Shown: piece after piece, positions 4,884-62,607 of the stretch
How positions within the stretch are numbered: the first letter of the stretch is position 1
Layout of the letters: every line of letters begins with the position of its first letter
From: Spirochaetales bacterium Spiro_02
GTDB lineage: Bacteria > Spirochaetota > Spirochaetia > Sphaerochaetales > Sphaerochaetaceae
Assembly (NCBI GenBank): GCA_001604275.1
Contig: LVBD01000051.1
Span: forward strand, 1-64,000
Reading direction: 5' to 3'
DNA: 64,000 bases
Notes under the pieces: model-generated
Database searches by the model: none
Told to the model about the DNA's origin: nothing
What the model saw: the letters and a program-made list of their open reading frames with translations, nothing else
Made by a program: the position numbers and the translations under genes

Positions 4884-5286
4884 AGTCCATGCCGACGCTT
4901 GTTCCACCGGCATCCCGCTGAGGCGAGATGTCGATCGTTTTTTGCGCTCTGTCGTCAGCCAAGTCTACACCACCATACAGTTTTTTTGTTCGTAACAATT
5001 AATTGCAATATAGGTAATTAATTCCAAGAAGCCCAATTTGATTGCTATATGATTGCTCGGTCATTGCTACATGCCTGCTCGGTCATTGCTACATGCCACC
5101 GAAAGAGCTTTCCCTCTGGAAAGTTCAGTCGCTTTGGTTACCACTGATTTATGAGGAAAAATAAAAAACAGCCAGTCTGAGTTAGCAATATCTAACTTTT
5201 TGTTGTATACTGACATCGCACTGTACGTCGTGATGCATATCACACGCATACATCGGCGTCAATCGATTATTCTTGGAGGTGGGGGG
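4884..5286. other. Intergenic region with tandem repeat, no gene
   Basis: No credible coding frame or RNA gene. It holds a perfect 22-bp tandem duplication (5054-5097), an AT-rich stretch, an inverted repeat GTTAG-N6-CTAAC (5181-5196) followed by T5, and a possible -10 TATACT (5206-5211) for the methyltransferase genes. Confidence 0.6.
5054..5097. repeat. Perfect 22-bp tandem duplication
   Basis: Two identical adjacent 22-bp units, 5054-5075 and 5076-5097, each beginning TGCTCGGTCATTGC and ending TACATGCC. A partial related copy (GATTGCT) lies just upstream. Confidence 0.9.
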
Positions 5287-6160
5287 ATGGATGGGACACG
5301 AATCGTCGATGACTCTCCGGGAACGGCGGATGGGGATGTGTCCGAAGCTGTTCGGAACACACTATGCATTCCGCTCTGGGGAAGGATGCTTGCTGCGCAA
5401 CACTTTCCTCACTTGTTCCCTGACCATGATGCGAAGCGAATCCTTGCGGAAATGCATTGCGATCTGTCTTCATCGAAATTATTCAAGTTGCAGTATGCCT
5501 ATCTCGACTGTGCGATCCGGCAATATGATTTTGCATGCGAAATCAACGCATATCTTGCAGAGTATCCCCGTGCCTGCGTCGTGGAACTTGGCGCCGGGCT
5601 TTCTGTACTGCGCAGACAGATGCAGAACGAGAGTAATGCATGGTACGATCTGGATCACCCCCAAGTCATCGCCTTGAGGAGACGGCATATTCCTTCCGGT
5701 GAACGAGAGAGAAACATCTCTTGCGACTTAAACGATCTCTCATGGTTCGATTCCATCGACCTCAATCCTCGAGACGGAATCGTATTCATTGCAGGTGGTT
5801 TGTTCTACTATTTCACGACAAAAGAGGTCCGTCGTCTGCTTGTAGCCATGGCCGAGAGGTTTCGCGGCGGCATGATCGCGTTCGACACTACAAATCATCG
5901 AGGTCTGCGGGGGGGTGAATAGGGAAGTGCGTATGGCGGGAAACGCGGCTAAATCGTACTTTTCGCTTGAAGCCCCGGCACGTGAATTGGAAGCATGGTC
6001 ACCGAACATCGTCAATGTTCGGGAAACGGACTATATGCGAGGCTATCAACCGAGCGGATTTCGGCCGTCGTTGCTGACGAAACTTGTGATGAAGATTTTG
6101 ACTGGGGTCCATATGTCGTTCATCGTCCATGCCGAATTCCTTCAGGAGCGGACGAAATGA
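5287..6160 (+). pseudogene. LCMT/PPM1-like SAM-dependent methyltransferase, interrupted by frameshift at G7
   Basis: The first part (5287-5922) resembles the leucine-carboxyl/TcmP-like O-methyltransferase family: VVELGAGLSVLRRQ is the SAM-binding motif I, WYDLDHPQVIALRR is the acidic second strand, and GGLFYYFTTKEV follows. It stops at 5920 just after seven consecutive G (5909-5915). The family's C-terminal part (SLEAPARELEAWSPNI, then a hydrophobic end) continues in the +1 frame to 6160. Removing one G gives one frame of about 290 aa, normal for the family. The second frame's stop overlaps the next ATG (ATGA), as expected of a real gene end. The start at 5287 has GGAGG seven bases upstream. 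Sequencing error, decay and phase variation are all possible. Confidence 0.75.
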
Positions 6161-6795
6161 ACAAGAGCTTCTGGGACCGATTTGCATGGTTGTATGATGT
6201 CGCCATGAACAAGGGAGAGGCCGGCGATCATGCCGCTGTCCGGTATATCGCACAATATCTGCACCCAGAGGATGTCATGTATGAGGCCGCTTGCGGAACT
6301 TGCAGGTATTCCCGTCCTCTAGCACAGCATGTATCGAGCATCCGATGCAGCGATTATTCCCGGAAGATGGTCGAAACGGCATTCCGGAAGGTCAGGAAGA
6401 TGAATATTCCAAATATGGACATATGTGTAGGGGATGTCATGGCGATCGATGCCCCCGACGCGACGTTCGACGTAGTGATGGCTGCGAACGTCCTGCACTT
6501 GCTGCACCGACCCGAAGAAGCGCTTCGGGAACTGGCAAGGATACTGAAGCCCGATGGATTGCTGGTAGTGCCGAATTTCGTCGATGTCGGATCGACCAAA
6601 CGAAACGGGCGGTTCATGTCATTGCTTTCCCGGCTCGGGTTCAGCGCGGCGAGGCAGTGGTCTACGGATGCATTTCTAGACTTTATACAGGATCAAGGAT
6701 TCCAGCTTGTTTCGCATGCCATGTTCGATTCTCGTCAACCGCTGTGCGTTGCGATCGTCAGACTGCGGGCAAACCGGTCTCTCGTAGGGAGGTAG
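6157..6795 (+). CDS. Class I SAM-dependent methyltransferase (Methyltransf_11/UbiE-like)
   Basis: Cytoplasmic methyltransferase of 212 aa. Motif I appears as YEAACGTCRYSRPLA, unusual in having AACGT rather than the common GxGxG. The later motifs DVVMAANVLHLL and LARILKPDGLLVVP are clear. The start at 6157 has AGGAG upstream and overlaps the stop of the preceding frame by four bases (ATGA). It sits between two other methyltransferase genes in an apparent operon. The substrate is unknown; small-molecule or lipid modification is a guess. Confidence 0.8.
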   Translation: MNKSFWDRFAWLYDVAMNKGEAGDHAAVRYIAQYLHPEDVMYEAACGTCRYSRPLAQHVSSIRCSDYSRKMVETAFRKVRKMNIPNMDICVGDVMAIDAPDATFDVVMAANVLHLLHRPEEALRELARILKPDGLLVVPNFVDVGSTKRNGRFMSLLSRLGFSAARQWSTDAFLDFIQDQGFQLVSHAMFDSRQPLCVAIVRLRANRSLVGR

Positions 6796-6798
6796 CAT

Positions 6799-7431
6799 AT
6801 GGGATTCGGTGCATCAAACCGGTTCGATACACAGTTTCGGAAACCCCGCGGGTTCCGTGGCAAATTACTGATTCGGGGAATGAATGCCGGTCATCGCAGG
6901 CTGTATGCATGGGGACTCGCCGGTTTTTCCATTCCATCCGGCGAGCGCGTGCTCGACGTCGGGTGCGGAGGCGGGGAGGCGATCCGGATGATGCTCGACA
7001 ACTATCCCGGCACGGTCGTGGACGGTGTGGACTATTCAGCCGATTGCGTCGCAATGAGTCGCAATCGGAACAAGGCGTACCTTGGAAGCAGGACGACGAT
7101 CTGCGAAGGCGACGTTCTGGCGCTTCCTTTTGCAGATAGCGCATACGACGTTGTCACTGCGTTCGAGACGATCTATTTCTGGCCCGATCTCGATGTCGCG
7201 TTCTCCCAGATTGCGCGCGTGCTTTCGCCGGGCGGCAGATTCCTGATCGTCTGCGAATCCGGCGATCCTTCTGAAAATGACTGGGAACGACGGATCGAAG
7301 GAATGAAGATCCATACCCCGACTGCGTTGAAGGATCGTCTGTCAGGTCTGGGGTTCCTGATTCTGGAAGATTCCCGCAGATCAGGATCGAGCGAGTTTCG
7401 CATCATCGCGCAGAAACGGATGAACGTGTGA
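6799..7431 (+). CDS. Class I SAM-dependent methyltransferase (Methyltransf_11)
   Basis: Cytoplasmic methyltransferase of 210 aa. Motif I VLDVGCGGGEAI, an acidic residue in GVDYSADCV, GDVLALPFADSAYDVVTAFETIYFWPD and VLSPGGRFLIV give a canonical SAM fold. GGGAGG precedes the ATG, three bases after the previous stop. It is the third gene of the methyltransferase group and ends six bases from the convergent hemolysin-III gene. Substrate unknown. Confidence 0.85.
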   Translation: MGFGASNRFDTQFRKPRGFRGKLLIRGMNAGHRRLYAWGLAGFSIPSGERVLDVGCGGGEAIRMMLDNYPGTVVDGVDYSADCVAMSRNRNKAYLGSRTTICEGDVLALPFADSAYDVVTAFETIYFWPDLDVAFSQIARVLSPGGRFLIVCESGDPSENDWERRIEGMKIHTPTALKDRLSGLGFLILEDSRRSGSSEFRIIAQKRMNV

Positions 7432-7437
7432 CGAGCG

Positions 7438-8112
7438 CTAGACGAGATATTTCCAGAATCCGATGAAGAAGAACAGGCTGCCGCCCACGCAGAACAGATG
7501 CCAGATGGCATGGTAGTGCGGGATCTTCTTGATCGCATAGAAGACGACGCCGACGGTATACGTAATTCCTCCTGCGAGGATCCACGAAAGCAACCCTTCG
7601 GGTAGCGCGGGGATGATATCGTTCCAAAAAAAGACGAGCAGCCAGCCCATCACAAGATAGAGTACGACATGCAACGGTTTGAGCCTGCCCCAGAACACCA
7701 GCGTGAACACGACTCCCGCCAATGCAACGATCCAGACGCCCCATGTGATTGCGACGGTCTTCGGGGTGTCGATGTACAGGAGAATGGGCGTATAGGTTCC
7801 TGCGATCAGGAAGTAGATGTTGCTGTGGTCGAGAATCCTGCAGAACCGTTTTGCATCGCCGACAGGAAGATGATGGTATAAGGCTGAAGCACTGTAGAGC
7901 AACAGCATCGAACAGCCATAGACGACCAGCCCGAACTTCAACGCTCCTCCTTCCGTGGTCGGGAGTTTCATGAGGATCATGATCAATGCGATGACCGCGA
8001 GGCCCGCGCCTACGAAATGGGTGAGCGCATTCTCCCGTTCGGCTTTTGCGTCGTCATGTGTATGAAGGCTGATTTGTCGCTCCAGCCACGATGCTTCGTG
8101 CTGCTGTTTCAT
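7438..8112 (-). CDS. Hemolysin III family / PAQR-type membrane protein
   Basis: Seven-helix membrane protein of 224 aa. An N-terminal cytoplasmic segment ends in ERENALTHFVGAG. Conserved motifs include SALYHHLPVGDAKRFCRILDHSNIYFLIAGTYTP and a late HAIWHLFCVGG. The Ser, Asp and three His residues match the metal site of the PAQR/CREST hydrolase superfamily. The start at 8112 has AAGGAG nine bases upstream; an in-frame extension to 8193 lacks support. Bacterial members are linked to membrane-lipid homeostasis; the name hemolysin is historical. Confidence 0.88.
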   Translation of the reverse strand: MKQQHEASWLERQISLHTHDDAKAERENALTHFVGAGLAVIALIMILMKLPTTEGGALKFGLVVYGCSMLLLYSASALYHHLPVGDAKRFCRILDHSNIYFLIAGTYTPILLYIDTPKTVAITWGVWIVALAGVVFTLVFWGRLKPLHVVLYLVMGWLLVFFWNDIIPALPEGLLSWILAGGITYTVGVVFYAIKKIPHYHAIWHLFCVGGSLFFFIGFWKYLV

Positions 8113-8155
8113 CGATTCATTCTCCTTGTGGCGGTTTGTCCGCCTACGCCGTATA

Positions 8156-8184
8156 AGAATATGCCTGCAGCGGGGAAGAGACAA
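8156..8184 (-). promoter_or_regulatory. Promoter of the hemolysin-III family gene
   Basis: On the minus strand TTGTCT (8184-8179), a 17-bp spacer and TATTCT (8161-8156), about 45 bases upstream of the ATG. Confidence 0.45.
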
Positions 8185-8268
8185 CGGTTCCAATGAATCC
8201 TGCCGACTTTTTTTCTACTAGTGACTTTTTACTATGCGCGGATTTCCTCCTTGCCGATATCCGCTTGT

Positions 8269-8361
8269 CATTTCCATACGGAAATGGTATCTATTGATAC
8301 AGGATCCCCTTGCGGGGAGGAAAGAACCGTCTGGCCGATCGACGATCAAGGGAGCCGGCGG
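8269..8361 (+). promoter_or_regulatory. Hairpin-rich leader of the UPF0316 gene (candidate structured RNA)
   Basis: Three adjacent perfect hairpins: CATTTCC/GGAAATG (8269-8286), GTATC/GATAC (8287-8300) and TCCCC/GGGGA (8305-8318). A fourth helix of CCG-CTGGC with GCCGG-CGG (8327-8361) encloses GATC/GATC. It ends about 60 bases before the start codon. Confidence 0.4.
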
Positions 8362-8424
8362 AAGGGCTTTCAGTATATGCTGTCCAAGTATGTACCGGAA
8401 GCCTTTTCATTTTTTGGAGGAATG

Positions 8425-8982
8425 ATGGATAGAATCGCTGAATTCCTGACTGGAAAGACGATCTACGTCTATCTGTTCGTTTTCTTCGGAAAACTGCTGG
8501 AAGTCGCCTTGGCATCGCTGCGTTCCCAGCTGATCCATAAAGGGGAGCGGTTGCTCGGCGGCATCGTCGCTGTCTTTGAATATACTTTCTGGCTCACGAT
8601 CACTGCGACGGTCATCACAGGATTCGCTGACGACCTGATCAAGATGCTCGTCTTGATCGCGGCGTTCGCTACCGGCAATGTCCTTGGTTCTTTCCTAGAA
8701 GAAAAGCTTGCGCTTGGATATGTGTCGATCAGCATCGTGTTCATGGAGAAGCAGAATGCATTGCAGGCTGCCGATCTGCTGAGAAGTCAGGGACACGCTC
8801 TGACCATTATTCCATCGCAAGGCATCAACGGCGCGGAACGAACCGTACTGCAACTGACTGTAAAACGCAAATATTCGACGTCGATCAAGTCCTTGATCCG
8901 CACCCATTTTCCGCAAGCCGTCCTTTCTGTCTCCGCTACCCAGCAGATTTTCGGCGGAACATTCGCCAAAGCGTTCAAGTGA
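8425..8982 (+). CDS. UPF0316 / DUF2179 family membrane protein
   Basis: Membrane protein of 185 aa. An N-terminal three-helix domain (DUF5698 type) contains YLFVFFGKLLEVALASLRSQLIHKGER and a Gly-rich EEKLALGY. It is followed by a small soluble DUF2179 domain (about residues 110-185) with a beta-alpha-beta pattern. The start is ATG 8425 (or 8422) after GGAGG at 8416-8420; the open frame extends further upstream but through the hairpin region. Function of the family is unknown. It ends 12 bases from the convergent ATPase gene. Confidence 0.82.
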   Translation: MDRIAEFLTGKTIYVYLFVFFGKLLEVALASLRSQLIHKGERLLGGIVAVFEYTFWLTITATVITGFADDLIKMLVLIAAFATGNVLGSFLEEKLALGYVSISIVFMEKQNALQAADLLRSQGHALTIIPSQGINGAERTVLQLTVKRKYSTSIKSLIRTHFPQAVLSVSATQQIFGGTFAKAFK

Positions 8983-8994
8983 CGGATGCCAGGT

Positions 8995-9735
8995 TTACAG
9001 TATATGGTCGAGAAAGAGCTTCGTCCGATCGTTCCGAGGGTGTTCGAAAATCTGTTCAGGAGTGCCGTATTCGATGATTTCTCCGCCGTCCATGAAAACT
9101 ACTTTCGTTGCGGCGGCTTTTGCGAATCCCATTTCATGGGTCACCAGCAACATCGTCATACCGCTCTTGGCAAGATCAAGCATGACATCGAGCACTTCCT
9201 TGATCATTTCGGGATCGAGAGCGCTTGTCGGTTCGTCGAAGAGCATGATTTTCGGCTGCATCGCCAGCGCGCGTGCGATCGCGACACGCTGCTGCTGTCC
9301 GCCTGACAGCTGACTGGGAAACGACTGGGCCTTCTCTTCCAATCCGACACGCTTGAGCAGATCCATCGCTAGCTGCTCCGCCTGCTTCCTGTCGATCTTC
9401 TTGACCTTCATCGGCGCGAGAATGATGTTCTCCATTACCGACAGATGTGGAAAGAGGTTGAAGCTCTGGAATACCATGCCGACTTCCTCGCGGATTTTGC
9501 GGATGTCGACGTTCGGTGCGGTAACCTCGTCATCATCGACGAAAATCTTTCCGGATGTCGGAATCTCTAGTTTGTTGACGGAACGGAGCAGCGTGCTTTT
9601 CCCGCTGCCGGATGGACCGATGATCACGACTACTTCTCCATCGTTCACTTCCAATGTCGCGTTCTTGATCGCATGGACGGTCGATTTGCTGGTATCGAAA
9701 TCCTTGCTGAGGTTTTCAATCTTGATTCTAGCCAT
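8995..9735 (-). CDS. Polar amino-acid ABC transporter ATP-binding protein (probable arginine/basic amino acid)
   Basis: GlnQ/ArtP-type ATPase of 246 aa: Walker [10 protein letters not shown] near 39-47, Q-loop FQSFN, signature LSGGQQQR, Walker [15 protein letters not shown] and H-loop THEMGFA. It overlaps the permease gene by eight bases and shares its promoter. The operators around the permease and the linked binding proteins match ArgR sites, so arginine or another basic amino acid is the inferred substrate. Confidence 0.92.
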
Positions 9736-55473: not shown

Positions 55474-55587
55474 AGAGTCTAGCATATGCTCGCCCGTGGA
55501 GGCAAGCAGGCCTTTCATACGGCCGCCTGGATATCCATCCATTCTGCTGGCGACCGGAACGCGTATTCGGACTGGGAGGATTTCCGT

Positions 55588-57048
55588 ATGCTTTGTCTGA
55601 CATTGACAGGTACCACTCTGGAAGAGGATTTCGCCCAGTACGAACGAAACCGGCAATGGATCAAGCTGGTCGAGCTCCGCATCGATTTGCTGGACGAATC
55701 CGAGCTCTCGACCGCTTCCTCCTTTCCCGATCGTGTCGATGTTCCGGTTATCCTGACATGCCGAAGAATTTCCGATGGAGGGAATTGCGGCCTGCCCGAA
55801 CGGCAGCGTTTGTCTCTGGTCAGGACTGTCGCCGCTGGACATTTCGCGTATGTCGATATCGAGGACGATGTAAAGAAGACCGAGTTTGAACACGAGCTGC
55901 ACGAGCGAGGTATCAAGATAATCAGATCGTATCATGACTGCCAGGGAATGCCCGCCGATATCTATTCCCGTCTTTCGCGGATGGCTACGAAAGGGGATAT
56001 CCCGAAAATCGCCGTGACCCCGAAGACGTTCATGGATGTGATTTCCTTGTTCCGTATCGAACAGGAACTGGCCGACGTGCCGGAGAAGATCGTGATCGGG
56101 ATGGGGGACATGGGAGTCCCTACCAGGATCCTGTACAAACGTACAGGGTCGTTCCTGACGTTCTGTTCCGACGGTCGGTCGATAAGCGGTGCCCCCGGAC
56201 ATCTGACGCCGAAAATGATGAGCGAATTGTACCGGGCGGACCAGGTCGACAAGCAGACGCATATCTACGGTGTCATCGGGAACCCCGTGCTGCATACAGC
56301 TTCTCCTATGATCCACAACCCCGGGTTCCATGCGATCCGTTTCAACGCAATCTATGTTCCCTTCCTCGTGGATTCCGTCCGTTCGTTCTTCAAGTTGGCG
56401 GAAAGTCTCCGAATTTACGGTTTTTCCGTCACGATTCCCCATAAGCAGGATGTCCTGCCATACCTGGGGAGAATCACCAGGGAAGTGAAGCAGATTGGTT
56501 CCTGCAACACCGTCGTCCGGATACAGAACATGTGGAAGGGGATCAATACCGACTATTACGGATTTCTTGCGCCGATTCAACGGGAAATCGAGCAGGGGCG
56601 GATTCATTCGGCGCTCGTCATCGGCGCCGGTGGCGCCGCCCGTGCCGTGGTGTGGGCGTTGCATAACCACAACATCAAGGTGACGATAGTCAACCGTAGC
56701 AAAGAGAAAGCGAAAGCGCTCGCGGAAGAAACGATGGGGGGATATGACTCGCTGGAGAACATCTGCGCATACCAGGGACAGGTCGACCTGGTGGTGCAGA
56801 CAACTTCCGTAGGCATGGCTCCTGATATCGACGGTGATCCGGCGCCGGACTTCCGCTTCATAGGATCCGAGATCGTCTACGATCTGGTATACAAGCCCCA
56901 TGAGACGAAATTCCTCGCTAGGGCGAATGCCGCCGGTTGCCGGATACAATACGGCATTGACATGCTGGTCCAGCAGGGAAAACTACAATTCGAAGCCTTC
57001 ACCGGCTATCATTATCCTCAGTGGGCGTCCATCTACGAGATGGAATGA
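55588..57048 (+). CDS. aroDE: Bifunctional 3-dehydroquinate dehydratase / shikimate dehydrogenase
   Basis: 486-aa fusion catalysing steps 3 and 4 of the shikimate pathway. Residues 1-215: type I dehydroquinase with E29, H116 (SYHDC) and the Schiff-base Lys K140 (PKIAV). Residues 225-486: shikimate dehydrogenase with GNPVLHTASPMIH, catalytic K286 in FSVTIPHK, D322 in NTDYYGF, NADP loop GAGGAARAV at 346-354 and a terminal QQGKLQFEAFTG. GGGAGGA lies eight bases before the ATG; the longer frame from 55486 lacks support. aroC and aroK lie on the other strand at 60915-62607. Confidence 0.93.
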   Translation: MLCLTLTGTTLEEDFAQYERNRQWIKLVELRIDLLDESELSTASSFPDRVDVPVILTCRRISDGGNCGLPERQRLSLVRTVAAGHFAYVDIEDDVKKTEFEHELHERGIKIIRSYHDCQGMPADIYSRLSRMATKGDIPKIAVTPKTFMDVISLFRIEQELADVPEKIVIGMGDMGVPTRILYKRTGSFLTFCSDGRSISGAPGHLTPKMMSELYRADQVDKQTHIYGVIGNPVLHTASPMIHNPGFHAIRFNAIYVPFLVDSVRSFFKLAESLRIYGFSVTIPHKQDVLPYLGRITREVKQIGSCNTVVRIQNMWKGINTDYYGFLAPIQREIEQGRIHSALVIGAGGAARAVVWALHNHNIKVTIVNRSKEKAKALAEETMGGYDSLENICAYQGQVDLVVQTTSVGMAPDIDGDPAPDFRFIGSEIVYDLVYKPHETKFLARANAAGCRIQYGIDMLVQQGKLQFEAFTGYHYPQWASIYEME

Positions 57049-59240
57049 TGGAGATTCCGATTTTCCTCGCAGTAATGCCCGCCAAGCAATGAAAGCCTCT
57101 GCCGCTTGACAAGGAACATCCGGCTGACCGGAATGGTTCGTTCCTCCATCGTCGGAAGAACGATGCCACGGAGCATCGCATCCTGGCTGGTCGGATACAT
57201 CAGCTCCTTCGCCTGGAGGAGAATATTCTTTTCTTCGTCATTGTCATATATTCGAACCTCGAGGATCATGTCGTCTTTTCCGACTGCGCTTTTGCAGAGA
57301 TTCAGTTTGCCCCGGAAGTCGAACCCCGATGCGGATAGCAATCCCGTGTATAATCTCTGCCTGACAACCTGCTGTGGAACCAGCAGTAAACTGCTTCTGA
57401 AGCGGCTGTCCATTTCTTCCGCATCAGTGCCGTCGAGGTGCAGTCGATCGATGGCTTGCGCGATTTCTTCAAGGAACCGGGGACGCGTCCAAGGCTCCAG
57501 GCGTTTCGCGGTCAACGAAAAACCTGACGCAGGGGCGCGTGTCCCGTTCAGTGTCTGCGGAGCTTGTTCCATGATCATGAGCAACGACAAGCCAGTTTCC
57601 TCAATCTCGTCTTGTTGTCTGACGTTCGCTGATAGACGAGCAGCATTTGGTCGCGTCCTCCACATTTCTTCCTGGATGGTCTTGGGAAGCATATCGGCTC
57701 CAGCGGTCTGTAGCAACAGTCGCCAGCGAGCTTCTTCCCTCCTGCTGAACAGATAGACGCCTTCCTGGATTCGTTGAACGATGTAGGGTTGCAATTGGGG
57801 ATGTTGGTCGATGATCCTCGTCATCCTCGTATCGCAGCAGACGACGATGCCGTCATAGATTCGGACGCTGTGGTATGCGGCGTACCATTCACCCATCATC
57901 TGCACAAGGTGCGTCGGCAATCGATTTGCGGAAGCTTTTTCAAGATACCCTGCGATTTCTTCGAAAGAAAGCCCGTAGTCGAGCGCATGGCGGAAGCTTT
58001 GCCGGGTAATTTCGTATCTGCACAGCACATCCACTTGCCTGACTTCGCCGATCAAATAGAGTAGGTCCTCCGAAGTTCCGCAAGAGTTCCTCCGTGAACC
58101 GCTGTAGCTGACCGTGCAGTCGCTGTCGACTGTCAGCGGCGATGTCAGCTGTTCATCGTCGTTCTGAAGGAACAGACGCCGAGCGGTTTCGGTGACCTGG
58201 TAGCCCATATCGGCACCAGAATCGGAAACGTTGTCCATGATACCAAGGACGAGAAGCGCATCGAGGAATCCATCGGCGATTTCGACGGAAAACGACAGTC
58301 CGTTCCTCCGAGCCAGAATGCGCATCAGACGGTCATAGCTTTTTCTGGAAAACGGAGGAAGGGCGTTTGCAAGCGCCAGGAAATCGACGGCAAGTCTTCC
58401 GCATGATCCGTATGTCGACGTAAGGTCGGCGTTGCCGTTGGCGTTCCTGACGATACGGGTGAACGCGGCCGACAGCAGCAAGAGGGTGACAGCCCGGTCG
58501 TTCAGATTCAGCAAAGCATCGCAAGAGCGCCTGCTGACAGTATGCCTGCCGTCCGGACTTGCGGCGACGACCTGGAGGAATTCAAGGAGCTTCCTGAGCA
58601 TGACGAAGAGCTTCGGAACCCTGTCCGGCTCAATCGTCGGGAACATTCCTTCCATCGGGGCCGAAGCATACAGTCTGGCCTCCATCGCAGCCGAATCGGA
58701 GACTTGTCCTTGGACAATCAGGTTGAGGTAGCCTCTGAGAATGTTCTCCGTAACCAATGCGGGGGAGGGGTGCCTTTCTCTGTCGGAGCTTTCCCCGCAA
58801 AACAGAGACGTCAAGCTGAAAATCTCTTTTTCGAGTCGAGTCTCGAGCAGCGGGTTGACAGCTACCGCCGAAAGGCCTTTTCTGTCTTCCGCAGGAAGAA
58901 GGAGCAGTCGTTCCTCCAGATTGACGATCCGTCTTTGTAGTTCCGCATACGGATAGTCGTCACGGAATAGATCAAGGATATCGTTCTCACATGGGGTTCG
59001 CATCAGATGGACAGCGGTCAGAATCATGGCATCGTCGTCGTCGATCAATGCGACGATCCGTTCCTGGTTCAAATCATTGAGGAAAAAGTTTGTGAGTCGA
59101 GCTGTCAACGTCGGCTTGTGGAAAGGCGTTCCGACCGGTCCGAGATAATTCCGCACAAGGAAGAAGTAGTTTTCGTCGCTATAGCGGGCGAGCATTCTCT
59201 GCCAGCGGGCGATCGCTTCCCGGTCATTGTTCACCGCCAT
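57033..59240 (-). CDS. XPB-associated protein with helicase C-terminal domain 3 (PF13625-like)
   Basis: 735-aa, largely helical protein without ATPase motifs. The segment around residues 400-500 (VDVLCRYEITRQSFRHALDYGLSFEEIAGYLE and IVVCCDTRMTRIIDQHPQLQPYI) matches the helicase-associated domain also found next to XPB genes in actinobacteria. The rest shows no recognised domain. Its start overlaps the XPB stop by ten bases, so the two are translated together. It presumably binds XPB or its DNA substrate; a nuclease role like archaeal Bax1 is possible, but no catalytic motif is evident. Confidence 0.8.
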   Translation of the reverse strand: MAVNNDREAIARWQRMLARYSDENYFFLVRNYLGPVGTPFHKPTLTARLTNFFLNDLNQERIVALIDDDDAMILTAVHLMRTPCENDILDLFRDDYPYAELQRRIVNLEERLLLLPAEDRKGLSAVAVNPLLETRLEKEIFSLTSLFCGESSDRERHPSPALVTENILRGYLNLIVQGQVSDSAAMEARLYASAPMEGMFPTIEPDRVPKLFVMLRKLLEFLQVVAASPDGRHTVSRRSCDALLNLNDRAVTLLLLSAAFTRIVRNANGNADLTSTYGSCGRLAVDFLALANALPPFSRKSYDRLMRILARRNGLSFSVEIADGFLDALLVLGIMDNVSDSGADMGYQVTETARRLFLQNDDEQLTSPLTVDSDCTVSYSGSRRNSCGTSEDLLYLIGEVRQVDVLCRYEITRQSFRHALDYGLSFEEIAGYLEKASANRLPTHLVQMMGEWYAAYHSVRIYDGIVVCCDTRMTRIIDQHPQLQPYIVQRIQEGVYLFSRREEARWRLLLQTAGADMLPKTIQEEMWRTRPNAARLSANVRQQDEIEETGLSLLMIMEQAPQTLNGTRAPASGFSLTAKRLEPWTRPRFLEEIAQAIDRLHLDGTDAEEMDSRFRSSLLLVPQQVVRQRLYTGLLSASGFDFRGKLNLCKSAVGKDDMILEVRIYDNDEEKNILLQAKELMYPTSQDAMLRGIVLPTMEERTIPVSRMFLVKRQRLSLLGGHYCEENRNLHHSIS

Positions 59241-60898
59241 ACCTCGATATGATAGGAGTACCCCTGCTCGGCAAGAAATTTCTGACGGTTCGCGGCGAAC
59301 TCCTCTTCGGTCGAATATCGCGTGACGAGCGAGTAGAAATTGCTCGAGCGTTCTTTCGGCCTCAGGATGCGTCCGAGGCGTTGCGCTTCCTCCTGTCGAG
59401 ATCCGAATGTCCCCGAAATCTGGATCGCCACCGACGCGTCTGGGAGGTCGATCGCGAAATTCGCGACTTTCGATACTACGAGTATCCGCTGTTTCCCATT
59501 CCGGAATCGCGAGAATAGTTCATCGCGTTTCGCATTGCTCGTCGTTCCTGTGATCAACGGGAGTTTGAATTCTTTTGCAACCTGCTGGAGCTGATCGATA
59601 TACTGGCCGATCACAAGGATGAAGTCATCGGGATGGCGTCGGAACAATTCCCGGATGACATCCATCTTCAGTGGGTTCTCGCTGGCTATGCGATATTTTT
59701 CCCGCTTGTTCGCCAGCGCATAGGGAATTTCCAATTCTGCTGGCAAAGGGATGCGGATCTCATGGCAACTGGCCTCCGCAATCCAGCCCTTGCTTTCCAG
59801 CTCCCCCCAGGGAACGTCGAACCGTTTCGGTCCGACGAGGGAGAACACCTCATCCTCCCGGCCATCCTCACGGATCAGGGTGGCGGTCAGGCCCACGCGG
59901 AAAACCGCCTGTAGTTCCGCGGTGACCTTGAACACCGGAGCCGGAAGCATGTGGACTTCGTCGTATATGATCAGACCCCAGTTTCCGTCTTTCAGGAGCC
60001 GCAGATGGGGGAAATCCCCCTCCTTGTCCGGTCTCCAGGTCAATACCTGATATGTGCAGACGGTAATCGGCTTGATCTCTTTCTTTTCTCCGGTGTACTC
60101 ACCGACTTGATCGGCGGACAGATCCGTCTTGTCGCGGATCTCGGCGATCCATTGATGGACTGCGGCTACATTGGTCGTGAGGATCAATGTCCGCGTGGAG
60201 AGCCTGCTCATGATCTCCATGCCAACGATTGTCTTGCCGGAACCGCATGGCAGGACGATCGTTCCGTAACCGGTACCTGGCCCTCCGTCCCCGATCAAAG
60301 CATCGGCTGCAAGCAACTGGTAGTCCCTCGGCTTGAAGCTTTTTCCCGTCCCTGTCCTTTCCTTGAGCCGGCAGGGGACCGGTTCTCCATGAGTCAGCGG
60401 AATTCTGTCGTCCACCGGGAAGCCGAGCTTGACGAGCTGGAGCTTCACTTCCCCCCGCTGATATCTGTCGAGCAGGAATGTATCGTCTCCGTTCGCCGTC
60501 AAGAGCTTCGCCAGCTGGTTTCTCGCTTGGATTTCCTTCGCATACCGCGGTATCGTGACTTTCAAAAGATAGTGGGATTCATCGGAAGGATCGATGGGAA
60601 GCGTCATGACGATGGTGCCGAATCGACCCGCGGTTTCCTTGATATAGAAACCGACCGATTCCGGGATGTCGAACCGCGACCATCGCTGAAGTCTCGTTTC
60701 GATATCCGCGACAGACAGCCCGGCTGAAGTCGCGTTCCAGAGCGATAGGGCGGAAATGGCGAATGTATGCACGTGCTCCGGTGATTTTACAAGTTCTGAG
60801 AACGCGATGATGTCATCCCGGCAACTTCCCGCGTCCGGGGAATGGACGTCGAGCAGCATCGTATGGTCGCTCTGAATGATCAACGGTCTGTCTCCCAT
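59231..60898 (-). CDS. XPB/Rad25-family DNA helicase
   Basis: Superfamily 2 3'-5' helicase/translocase, 555 aa from ATG 60898 (a TTG at 60904 with AAGGAG five bases upstream is an alternative start). An N-terminal domain of about 180 residues resembles the damage-recognition region. Walker A LPCGSGKT near 216-223, DEVH near 313-316, the XPB-specific RED motif in LIREDGRED near 343-345, and motif VI QRLGRILRPK near 506-515. Bacterial XPB proteins unwind DNA and are tied to nucleotide excision repair by homology. Encoded downstream of aroC and coupled to the PF13625 gene. Confidence 0.92.
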   Translation of the reverse strand: MGDRPLIIQSDHTMLLDVHSPDAGSCRDDIIAFSELVKSPEHVHTFAISALSLWNATSAGLSVADIETRLQRWSRFDIPESVGFYIKETAGRFGTIVMTLPIDPSDESHYLLKVTIPRYAKEIQARNQLAKLLTANGDDTFLLDRYQRGEVKLQLVKLGFPVDDRIPLTHGEPVPCRLKERTGTGKSFKPRDYQLLAADALIGDGGPGTGYGTIVLPCGSGKTIVGMEIMSRLSTRTLILTTNVAAVHQWIAEIRDKTDLSADQVGEYTGEKKEIKPITVCTYQVLTWRPDKEGDFPHLRLLKDGNWGLIIYDEVHMLPAPVFKVTAELQAVFRVGLTATLIREDGREDEVFSLVGPKRFDVPWGELESKGWIAEASCHEIRIPLPAELEIPYALANKREKYRIASENPLKMDVIRELFRRHPDDFILVIGQYIDQLQQVAKEFKLPLITGTTSNAKRDELFSRFRNGKQRILVVSKVANFAIDLPDASVAIQISGTFGSRQEEAQRLGRILRPKERSSNFYSLVTRYSTEEEFAANRQKFLAEQGYSYHIEVWR

Positions 60899-60914
60899 GC
60901 TCAATCGCGCTCCT

Positions 60915-62003
60915 TTATCGGATGTCCGATGGCCGAGGTACTCTTCCGAATGCCGTATACCACGCGTCCAAGATCGTGATCGCGGCCATGGCTTCCACTA
61001 CGACGACCGCCCGCGGACATACACACGGATCATGGCGTCCATGAACCTCCACGATCCGTTCCCGTCCATCCAAGTCCATGGTCCGCTGGGGAAGGGAGAT
61101 CGATGGGGTGGGCTTGACGGCGATGCGGAACACCAATGGGGCGCCGCTGGACATTCCGCCGAGGACGCCTCCGGCGTGATTGGTCAGGAACATCGGCTTT
61201 CCGTTGCCGTCGAGCGCCATTTCGTCATTGAACCGCGAGCCTGACGAGAGCGCGCAGGAAAAGCCATCGCCGAATTCGATTCCCTTTACCGCCCCGATAC
61301 TGAGCATCGCCTGTGCGATTTTCGCATCGAGCTTATCGAACACGGGCTCTCCCAAGCCGGGAGGAAGCCCCGTCGCGATGCATTCGATGATCCCTCCCAC
61401 GCTGTCCTGGGCTTTACGGGCGGCTTCGATCCGTTCCTGCATCCCGATCGCAGCCTGTTCGTCGGGGCAGTTCAGCGGATTCGACGGTGCGACATCCCAG
61501 TCACGGCGACTTGCTGCGACATCTCCGATCCTGACGGTTCCCGCAACGATTCCGATTCCTTTCAGTTTCAGTATCTGCATGGCGATCGCACCCGCCGCGA
61601 CTCTCGACGACGTCTCCCTTCCAGAAGATCTTCCCCCGCCGCGCCAGTCGCGGATACCGAATTTCTGCTGCCAGGTCCAATCAGCATGTCCGGGGCGGTA
61701 GAGCCCTGCGATTTCGTCGTAATCCGACGATTTCTGGTCTCCGTTGCGAATCTCCATGGCAAGCGGAGCTCCTGTCGTCAGTCCTTGGAACATGCCGCTG
61801 AGGATACTGACTTCATCCTGTTCCTTTCTAGCGGTTCCAAGGGCATTGGCTCCGGGACGTCTTCTCTCCATCATCCGGCGCAGTTCCTGCACATCGATCG
61901 GTATTCCAGGTTCAAGTCCGTCCACGACCACCCCGAGCGCAACCCCATGGGATTCTCCGAATGTCGTGACATGCAAAGCCGACCCGAAACTATTCGCACT
62001 CAT
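60915..62003 (-). CDS. aroC: Chorismate synthase
   Basis: Last step of the shikimate pathway, FMN-dependent; 362 aa. FGESHGVALGVVVDGLEPG, RRPGANALGTARKEQDEV, RGGGRSSGRETSSRVAAGAIA and FLTNHAGGVLGGMSSG are diagnostic. It overlaps aroK by 14 bases and precedes the XPB gene by 16 bases, all leftward. Confidence 0.95.
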   Translation of the reverse strand: MSANSFGSALHVTTFGESHGVALGVVVDGLEPGIPIDVQELRRMMERRRPGANALGTARKEQDEVSILSGMFQGLTTGAPLAMEIRNGDQKSSDYDEIAGLYRPGHADWTWQQKFGIRDWRGGGRSSGRETSSRVAAGAIAMQILKLKGIGIVAGTVRIGDVAASRRDWDVAPSNPLNCPDEQAAIGMQERIEAARKAQDSVGGIIECIATGLPPGLGEPVFDKLDAKIAQAMLSIGAVKGIEFGDGFSCALSSGSRFNDEMALDGNGKPMFLTNHAGGVLGGMSSGAPLVFRIAVKPTPSISLPQRTMDLDGRERIVEVHGRHDPCVCPRAVVVVEAMAAITILDAWYTAFGRVPRPSDIR

Positions 62004-62607
62004 GGCAAGGCTCCTTATGGTAGGTTCGAAGGACGTTGGAAAGAGATTTCATGAGGAAACGGCATGTTTCTTCAGGTCTCTCACAATCCGGCAATTGTAT
62101 CATAAAATCGCATTGGCTTCTATAGCGTGCGTCTCTTTCGGCGTAGAGTTTCGCGAAAGAACCTTCGGGATCCCGTTCGTCCAGGAACGGCGGAATTCCC
62201 CCCGCGATAATGCGATTGAACAGCACGGAACAGTCGTTGGTAAGGTATGCGACGATCCCTCTGCCCTTGACCGCAGCCATTAGGTCTTCGTTGTCACATG
62301 CGCCACCCCCTAGCGAGACGATCGACCGGATCCCCGTGAACGGAAACTTGTCGCAGAGCGCCGTCGCGGCATCGTTCGACGAGGAGAGGAATCGCTTCAT
62401 CGAAGCCGCCTCGGCGCGCTTGAATGCTACCGGCCCGACCGAGCGATAGAAACTTCTGATGTCCGCGCATCCCTCAGGGAGATCGTTCGCCATGATGGCG
62501 TCGCTATCGTAGAACGGAACGCCGAGCTTCCGCGCACAAAGACACCCCATCGTTGATTTTCCGCTATGCTTGATTCCTGCGAAAAAAAGAATATACGACT
62601 GGGTCAT
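61990..62607 (-). CDS. aroK: Shikimate kinase
   Basis: 205-aa P-loop kinase phosphorylating shikimate. Walker A GIKHSGKST at about 11-19, the shikimate-binding DSD in VPFYDSDAIM, GGGA in IVSLGGGACDNED and the lid ERDPEGSFAKLYAERDARYR. It is somewhat longer than the usual 170 residues, with an insertion after residue 75 and a polar C-terminal tail. First gene of the leftward aroK-aroC-XPB-PF13625 group. Confidence 0.88.
   Translation of the reverse strand: MTQSYILFFAGIKHSGKSTMGCLCARKLGVPFYDSDAIMANDLPEGCADIRSFYRSVGPVAFKRAEAASMKRFLSSSNDAATALCDKFPFTGIRSIVSLGGGACDNEDLMAAVKGRGIVAYLTNDCSVLFNRIIAGGIPPFLDERDPEGSFAKLYAERDARYRSQCDFMIQLPDCERPEETCRFLMKSLSNVLRTYHKEPCHECE

Follow-up and report, generated by a model that had tools for sequence, protein, structure and literature searches.

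A distant relative of the TFIIH subunit p52, with an added WYL-like domain, is encoded beside the XPB helicase in a spirochaete and in other bacteria

The window analysed here is a 64,000-nucleotide stretch of contig LVBD01000051.1 from Spirochaetales bacterium Spiro_02. It encodes an XPB-type DNA helicase whose gene overlaps that of a large partner protein, and it raises the question of what this partner is and what it might do for the helicase. In human TFIIH, a complex of repair and transcription, XPB is anchored by the subunit p52. It is well supported by the results below that the partner is a distant relative of p52, although published work denies any such bacterial relative. According to a review from 2026, what XPB does in bacteria is still elusive, and no bacterial partner is reported there (PMC13024598). 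Literature searches for XPB with WYL domains and for bacterial p52, which took in few subscription papers and no bioRxiv content and leave a prior mention possible, found nothing, and the first-pass annotation appears to have been right in calling the partner's function undescribed: no published function was found.

The pair lies at the end of an aroK-aroC-XPB-partner series on the reverse strand. The two upstream genes, aroK (61990-62607, the first of the cluster) and aroC (60915-62003), are presumably what their names say, the names following the earlier annotation. The XPB gene (59231-60898, reverse strand) encodes 555 amino acids from an ATG at 60898 that is preceded by AAAGGAG; a TTG at 60904 is a possible alternative start and would give 557 amino acids. 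The partner gene, also on the reverse strand, runs from an ATG at 59240 to a stop at 57033 and encodes 735 amino acids. The two reading frames overlap by 10 nt (59231-59240), with the XPB stop codon TGA lying inside ATGGCGGTGA, a layout typical of translational coupling, which may operate here. Downstream, an aroD-aroE fusion (55486-57048, forward strand) is convergent with the partner, and the 3' ends of the two genes overlap by 16 nt on opposite strands. The mfd gene, for the transcription-repair coupling factor, is found at 67975-70548 of the same contig, past the window end and approximately 7 kb from XPB.

The position of the pair among shikimate genes had been suggested to reflect growth-linked expression, a reading that is unsupported as a general principle because the setting is not conserved beyond the window's family. 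Within that family the aroK-aroC-XPB-partner order is kept together with the convergent aroDE and, beyond it, ABC-F and Maf-like genes. Elsewhere in the class, all that other families retain is the convergent aroDE adjoining the partner, and aro genes are absent near XPB and partner in other phyla; the shikimate setting is local synteny, with no evidence of a shikimate link. The convergent partner/aroDE pair is itself more widely kept: many families of this class have it, including some without aroK-aroC.

The helicase carries the full set of XPB hallmarks, including the RED motif, that the first-pass annotation attributed to it. It scores 804 bits against the NF045503 model "DNA repair helicase XPB" (cut-off 610), and contains a Walker A motif (LPCGSGKT) at 216, DEVH (motif II) at 313, RED within TATLIRED at 338-345, and motif VI (QEEAQRLGR) at 502. 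Its best relatives in the PDB by phmmer are human and yeast XPB (E = 2e-73), which match over the full length including the N-terminal domain, and archaeal XPB proteins rank behind them (E = 2e-47 and 6e-39). The N-terminal clutch domain (PF13625) is encoded at 60497-60883 (reverse strand; residues 8-136, 88 bits, E = 4.9e-25), and the same Pfam domain occurs in the partner.

In the partner, the PF13625 clutch (57768-58130, reverse strand; residues 371-491) scores 42.7 bits (cut-off 34.2) and is the sole domain above a curated cut-off, so that the earlier description of a 735-residue protein with a PF13625 segment, starting within the end of XPB, stands. So does the statement that it has no recognised catalytic motif, as no catalytic family was matched by Pfam, NCBIfam or PADLOC. 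The PADLOC search for defence systems returned merely generic helicase matches, and a defence-system reading of the pair was dropped.

Relatives of known structure are detected only by profiles: the single partner sequence has no match in the PDB, and its Tfb2 match in a single-sequence Pfam scan is faint (E = 0.13, 11.6 bits). When a profile built from 40 homologues from spirochaete genomes was compared with all PDB chains, p52/Tfb2 made up the first six matches (human, E = 1.7e-7), with XPB N-terminal domains below them (3e-4). With homologues of other phyla added (L104-L148), p52/Tfb2 again came first (E = 6.3e-10 and 1.1e-9), and human p52 was aligned at residues 26-393 of 446. The stretch common to human p52 and the partner is readable by eye, the partner side being EITRQSFRHALDYGLSFEEIAGYL...RLPTHLVQMMGEWYAAYHSVRIYDG. 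Conversely, a search with the Pfam Tfb2 model picks up bacterial partners in the expected region (E = 6.9e-5 to 7e-4), with scores below its cut-off: PF03849 requires 34.5 bits, and the window's partner reaches 11.6 and the best relative 22.4. No partner passes this threshold, and the family is therefore a distant homologue only, outside the curated one.

The predicted structure gives the same answer. An AlphaFold2 model of the partner (pLDDT 86.4, pTM 0.84) was compared by Foldseek with 350,542 PDB chains, and ranks 1-13 were all p52/Tfb2 (probability 1.00, E = 5.3e-9 to 6.5e-5), most of the alignments spanning approximately 500 columns; XPB N-terminal domains followed, and then the WYL regulators PafBC, CapW, BrxR and DriD. 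TM-scores between the partner and p52 are low (0.2-0.3) because the domain orientations differ. Residues 1-366 (58143-59240, reverse strand) form a helical/winged-helix array that matches the part of p52 upstream of its clutch, and the clutch at residues 371-491 is closest to that of p52. In the secondary structure of the model, the end of the clutch is followed by a small alpha/beta segment (57705-57872, reverse strand; residues ~457-512 with the clutch end), a putative counterpart, by position only, of the C-terminal, p8-binding module of p52; the segment has no significant match, and the Tfb5 model hits one member of the partner family at E = 0.14.

The C-terminus of the partner resembles WYL domains. 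Residues ~589-715 (57096-57476, reverse strand) give Foldseek matches to WYL proteins, and the Pfam WYL family (PF13280, cut-off 21.8) is matched below threshold in relatives of the partner (20.6 bits in L134 and 17.6 in L104), so that the assignment depends on the modelled fold and on these sub-threshold matches. The domain thus shares its fold with the C-terminal domain of the damage regulators PafBC and DriD. It differs from them in sitting on a p52-like scaffold beside a helicase, and in that the C-terminus of the window's family lacks sequence-detectable WYL similarity: a profile search from this region gave no WYL match.

The pairing of XPB with the partner extends far beyond the window. 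Of 40 loci examined in relatives, 37 have XPB directly upstream of the partner and in the same orientation; the pairing is no coincidence, and the earlier suggestion of a two-component unit is upheld. When XPB was used as bait to collect 80 named loci from GTDB species, the partner was found on the same fragment in 53, drawn from the Spirochaetota, Deltaproteobacteria, Bacillota (Paenibacillus), Chloroflexota, Planctomycetota, Gemmatimonadota, Hydrogenedentota, SAR324 and Actinobacteria. Its presence in the last of these had also been noted, and is borne out by five loci (L139, L141, L142, L145 and L146) in which a member of the same family, by iterated profile, adjoins XPB in reversed order, upstream of it. 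Where XPB has no adjacent partner, the partner is encoded elsewhere in 16 of 18 genomes, including that of Treponema vincentii.

Some loci depart from this arrangement. In Hydrogenedentota (L107:6662-9805, L108:3337-6513 and L113:2111-5218), the place of the partner after XPB is taken, within 1-2 nt, by an AddB-like gene with ADDB_N and a PDDEXK_1 nuclease; the partner is encoded elsewhere in the two genomes checked. On an Anaerolineae contig (L137), XPB is followed by a tandem pair of partner-like genes (4911-7160 and 7164-9557), the second with two PF13625 stretches, possibly an expanded complex. In a 1.1-Mb treponeme-like genome, the partner is split into two parts that lie in separate frames, well away from XPB (G122:C1:25113-27496), and may be decaying or mis-sequenced.

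Across the window's class, the partner is present in all 51 genomes with XPB and absent from 17 of the 18 without it, the lone exception holding a 436-aa fragment (Fisher p = 3e-15, uncorrected for relatedness, with 16 of the absences from one family). One whole reduced-genome family of the class lacks the pair. Weak partner matches in other classes (E = 1e-7 to 1e-9), seen in a phylum-wide survey, possibly represent XPB's own clutch; they were excluded from this count. In archaea, the partner occurs in three of four genomes, all of one phylum, with a bacterial-type, clutch-bearing XPB, and in none of 26 whose XPB is clutch-less or matches only downstream of most of the clutch. The presence of the partner follows that of a clutch-bearing XPB; it therefore tracks the clutch, as expected of a clutch-binding subunit. 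Archaeal sequences with a bacterial-type XPB and partner (L154 [G395:C21], G407:C39 and G370:C5) may reflect transfer or contamination, and G407 and G370 carry a short archaeal XPB besides the bacterial-type one.

We consider it probable, with some confidence, that the partner is a distant bacterial counterpart of p52 (Tfb2) that docks XPB by clutch-clutch pairing, and that the pair is a minimal XPB-p52 module, a motor that opens double-stranded DNA at damaged or blocked sites. In human TFIIH, the clutch of p52 (residues 306-399) has the fold of the XPB N-terminal domain, and the two clutches pair pseudo-symmetrically via their beta-sheets, recruiting XPB, holding RecA2 and stimulating the ATPase (PMC6422496). 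Because the clutches pair in TFIIH and both halves of the interface lie in overlapping genes here, a clutch-clutch mechanism is most likely. The PF13625 clutch of the partner would bind that of XPB, and would thereby recruit the helicase, position its RecA2 domain and stimulate its ATPase. The p52-like winged-helix array would act as a scaffold and as a contact arm toward DNA, repair factors or polymerase. The WYL domains of PafBC and DriD bind single-stranded DNA (ssDNA), which activates both regulators through these domains (PMC11804915; PMC12340889), and a WYL tail is also known from Pif1 helicases (PMC9964779); the WYL-like tail of the partner may similarly bind ssDNA exposed by XPB or by damage, and gate or retain the motor where strands open. 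The pair would then be a two-subunit DNA-opening machine, in which a p52-like scaffold with an ssDNA-responsive tail docks and activates XPB. We infer, on these grounds, that XPB and its partner form a physical complex with ATPase stimulation and ssDNA sensing, and that the pair contributes to excision repair or helps to clear stalled transcription. Repair at sites where DNA is open or blocked is the process most likely served; since Mfd is also encoded in the genome, the pair need not have a repair or transcription-coupling role.

The main alternative is that the pair is mainly transcriptional, its winged-helix and WYL-like partner bringing XPB, as a translocase, to promoters or RNA polymerase in the way that TFIIH works at initiation, rather than to sites of repair. 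The action of XPB-p52 in eukaryotic promoter opening, the work of the WYL proteins PafBC and DriD with RNA polymerase, and the winged-helix array of the partner all favour it. However, nothing that we found ties the pair to RNA polymerase, and its wide but patchy distribution, with the reduced-genome family entirely without it, speaks against core transcription; we regard this alternative as rather unlikely, though worth keeping in mind.

Since it might be objected that the clutch alone is common to the partner and p52, residues 1-366 were modelled by themselves (64 rows; pLDDT 91.7, pTM 0.89). The partner could have merely borrowed an XPB-type clutch, the remainder being an unrelated winged-helix regulator, in which case it would bind XPB and be no homologue of p52. 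This would agree with PF13625 being the one domain that exceeds a curated cut-off, and with the commonness of winged helices: by sequence alone, the N-terminal part finds yeast Tfb2 second and fourth (E = 0.015 and 0.046), outranked by a generic winged-helix match (E = 0.007), and its similarity to Tfb2, so taken, is borderline. The clutch-free model, however, has p52/Tfb2 as its first five PDB matches (probability 0.99-1.00, E = 1.4e-3 to 6.5e-3) across nearly its whole length (337-353 columns), and no other family comes near in number of matches. The order of matches in the profile and fold searches, p52 before XPB N-terminal domains, also opposes a borrowed clutch, as do the clutches themselves: with an HMM built from partner clutches, the scores of p52 (31-43 bits) equal or exceed those of XPB (30-33), whereas an HMM of bacterial XPB clutches gives human and yeast XPB 65-70 bits and p52 only 7-11. 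Clutch borrowing is on balance improbable, and homology of the partner to p52 over both array and clutch is well supported.

The clutches fall into two separate lineages, an XPB type and a p52/partner type. The clutch of the window's XPB, taken alone, matches the yeast and human XPB N-terminal domains (E = 3.5e-10) and no p52 chain in the PDB at E ≤ 10. In a tree of clutches, bacterial and eukaryotic XPB group together (support 99/98), and three p52 sequences fall among the partners, with planctomycete partners (98/88), on long branches. It could nevertheless be argued that the p52 clutch arose within eukaryotes by duplication of that of XPB and resembles the bacterial partner by convergence: monophyly of the eukaryotic clutches, those of p52 and of XPB together, is not rejected by the AU test (p = 0.27, on 100 columns and with little power). 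We judge this very improbable, in view of the 99/98 grouping and the HMM cross-scores, and because it leaves the clutch-independent match of the N-terminal array unexplained. Given the AU result, no direction of descent is claimed.

Almost no credence can be given to a helicase-nuclease pair of the Bax1 type with a nuclease hidden in residues 500-735, as the earlier comparison with archaeal XPB-Bax1 implied: archaeal XPB does have the nuclease partner Bax1 (PMC7672443; PMC13024598) and an AddB-like helicase-nuclease gene follows XPB in Hydrogenedentota, but this region is modelled with good confidence as a WYL-like beta-barrel, no nuclease family is found in the partner by Pfam or NCBIfam, and the 26 sampled archaeal genomes with only clutch-less XPB have no partner, so that this identity was rejected and XPB-p52 of TFIIH is the better fit.

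The p52-like partner can thus be placed among known systems. With p52/Tfb2 of TFIIH (GTF2H4, PF03849) it shares a helical/winged-helix array followed by a clutch, colinear and of the p52 fold, the clutch having the fold of the XPB N-terminal domain and occurring together with a clutch-bearing XPB; it differs in being bacterial, in scoring below the Pfam Tfb2 cut-off and in adding a C-terminal WYL-like domain. In the window's genome, XPD/rad3 reached at best 34 bits (cut-off 247), and a search for Tfb4/p34 gave no match, as did the control search for that run. With archaeal XPB-Bax1 the pair has in common a two-component unit built on XPB; its partner is without a nuclease, and is predicted to dock on the clutch of XPB, a domain missing from the short archaeal form. 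The actinobacterial combination of XPB and a PF13625 protein, of the Rv0861c/Rv0862c type (two genes that we take to be adjacent), has the same partner family next to XPB and differs in having the partner upstream.

What appears to be new here is a probable bacterial version of the XPB-p52 module known from TFIIH, to which a WYL-like domain has been added. It is conceivable, though we lean slightly against it, that a working proto-TFIIH exists in bacteria as a heterodimer of XPB and p52 with its own ssDNA sensor, and that the XPB-p52 core of eukaryotic TFIIH derives from this bacterial pair, or has a common ancestor with it, rather than deriving from archaeal XPB-Bax1. In this respect the pair bears on the origin of TFIIH. 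A p52 counterpart provides bacterial XPB with a concrete partner and a predicted interface, and with ATPase stimulation as a property to assay; the pair also serves as a two-protein model for that part of TFIIH which is altered in XP and TTD patients.
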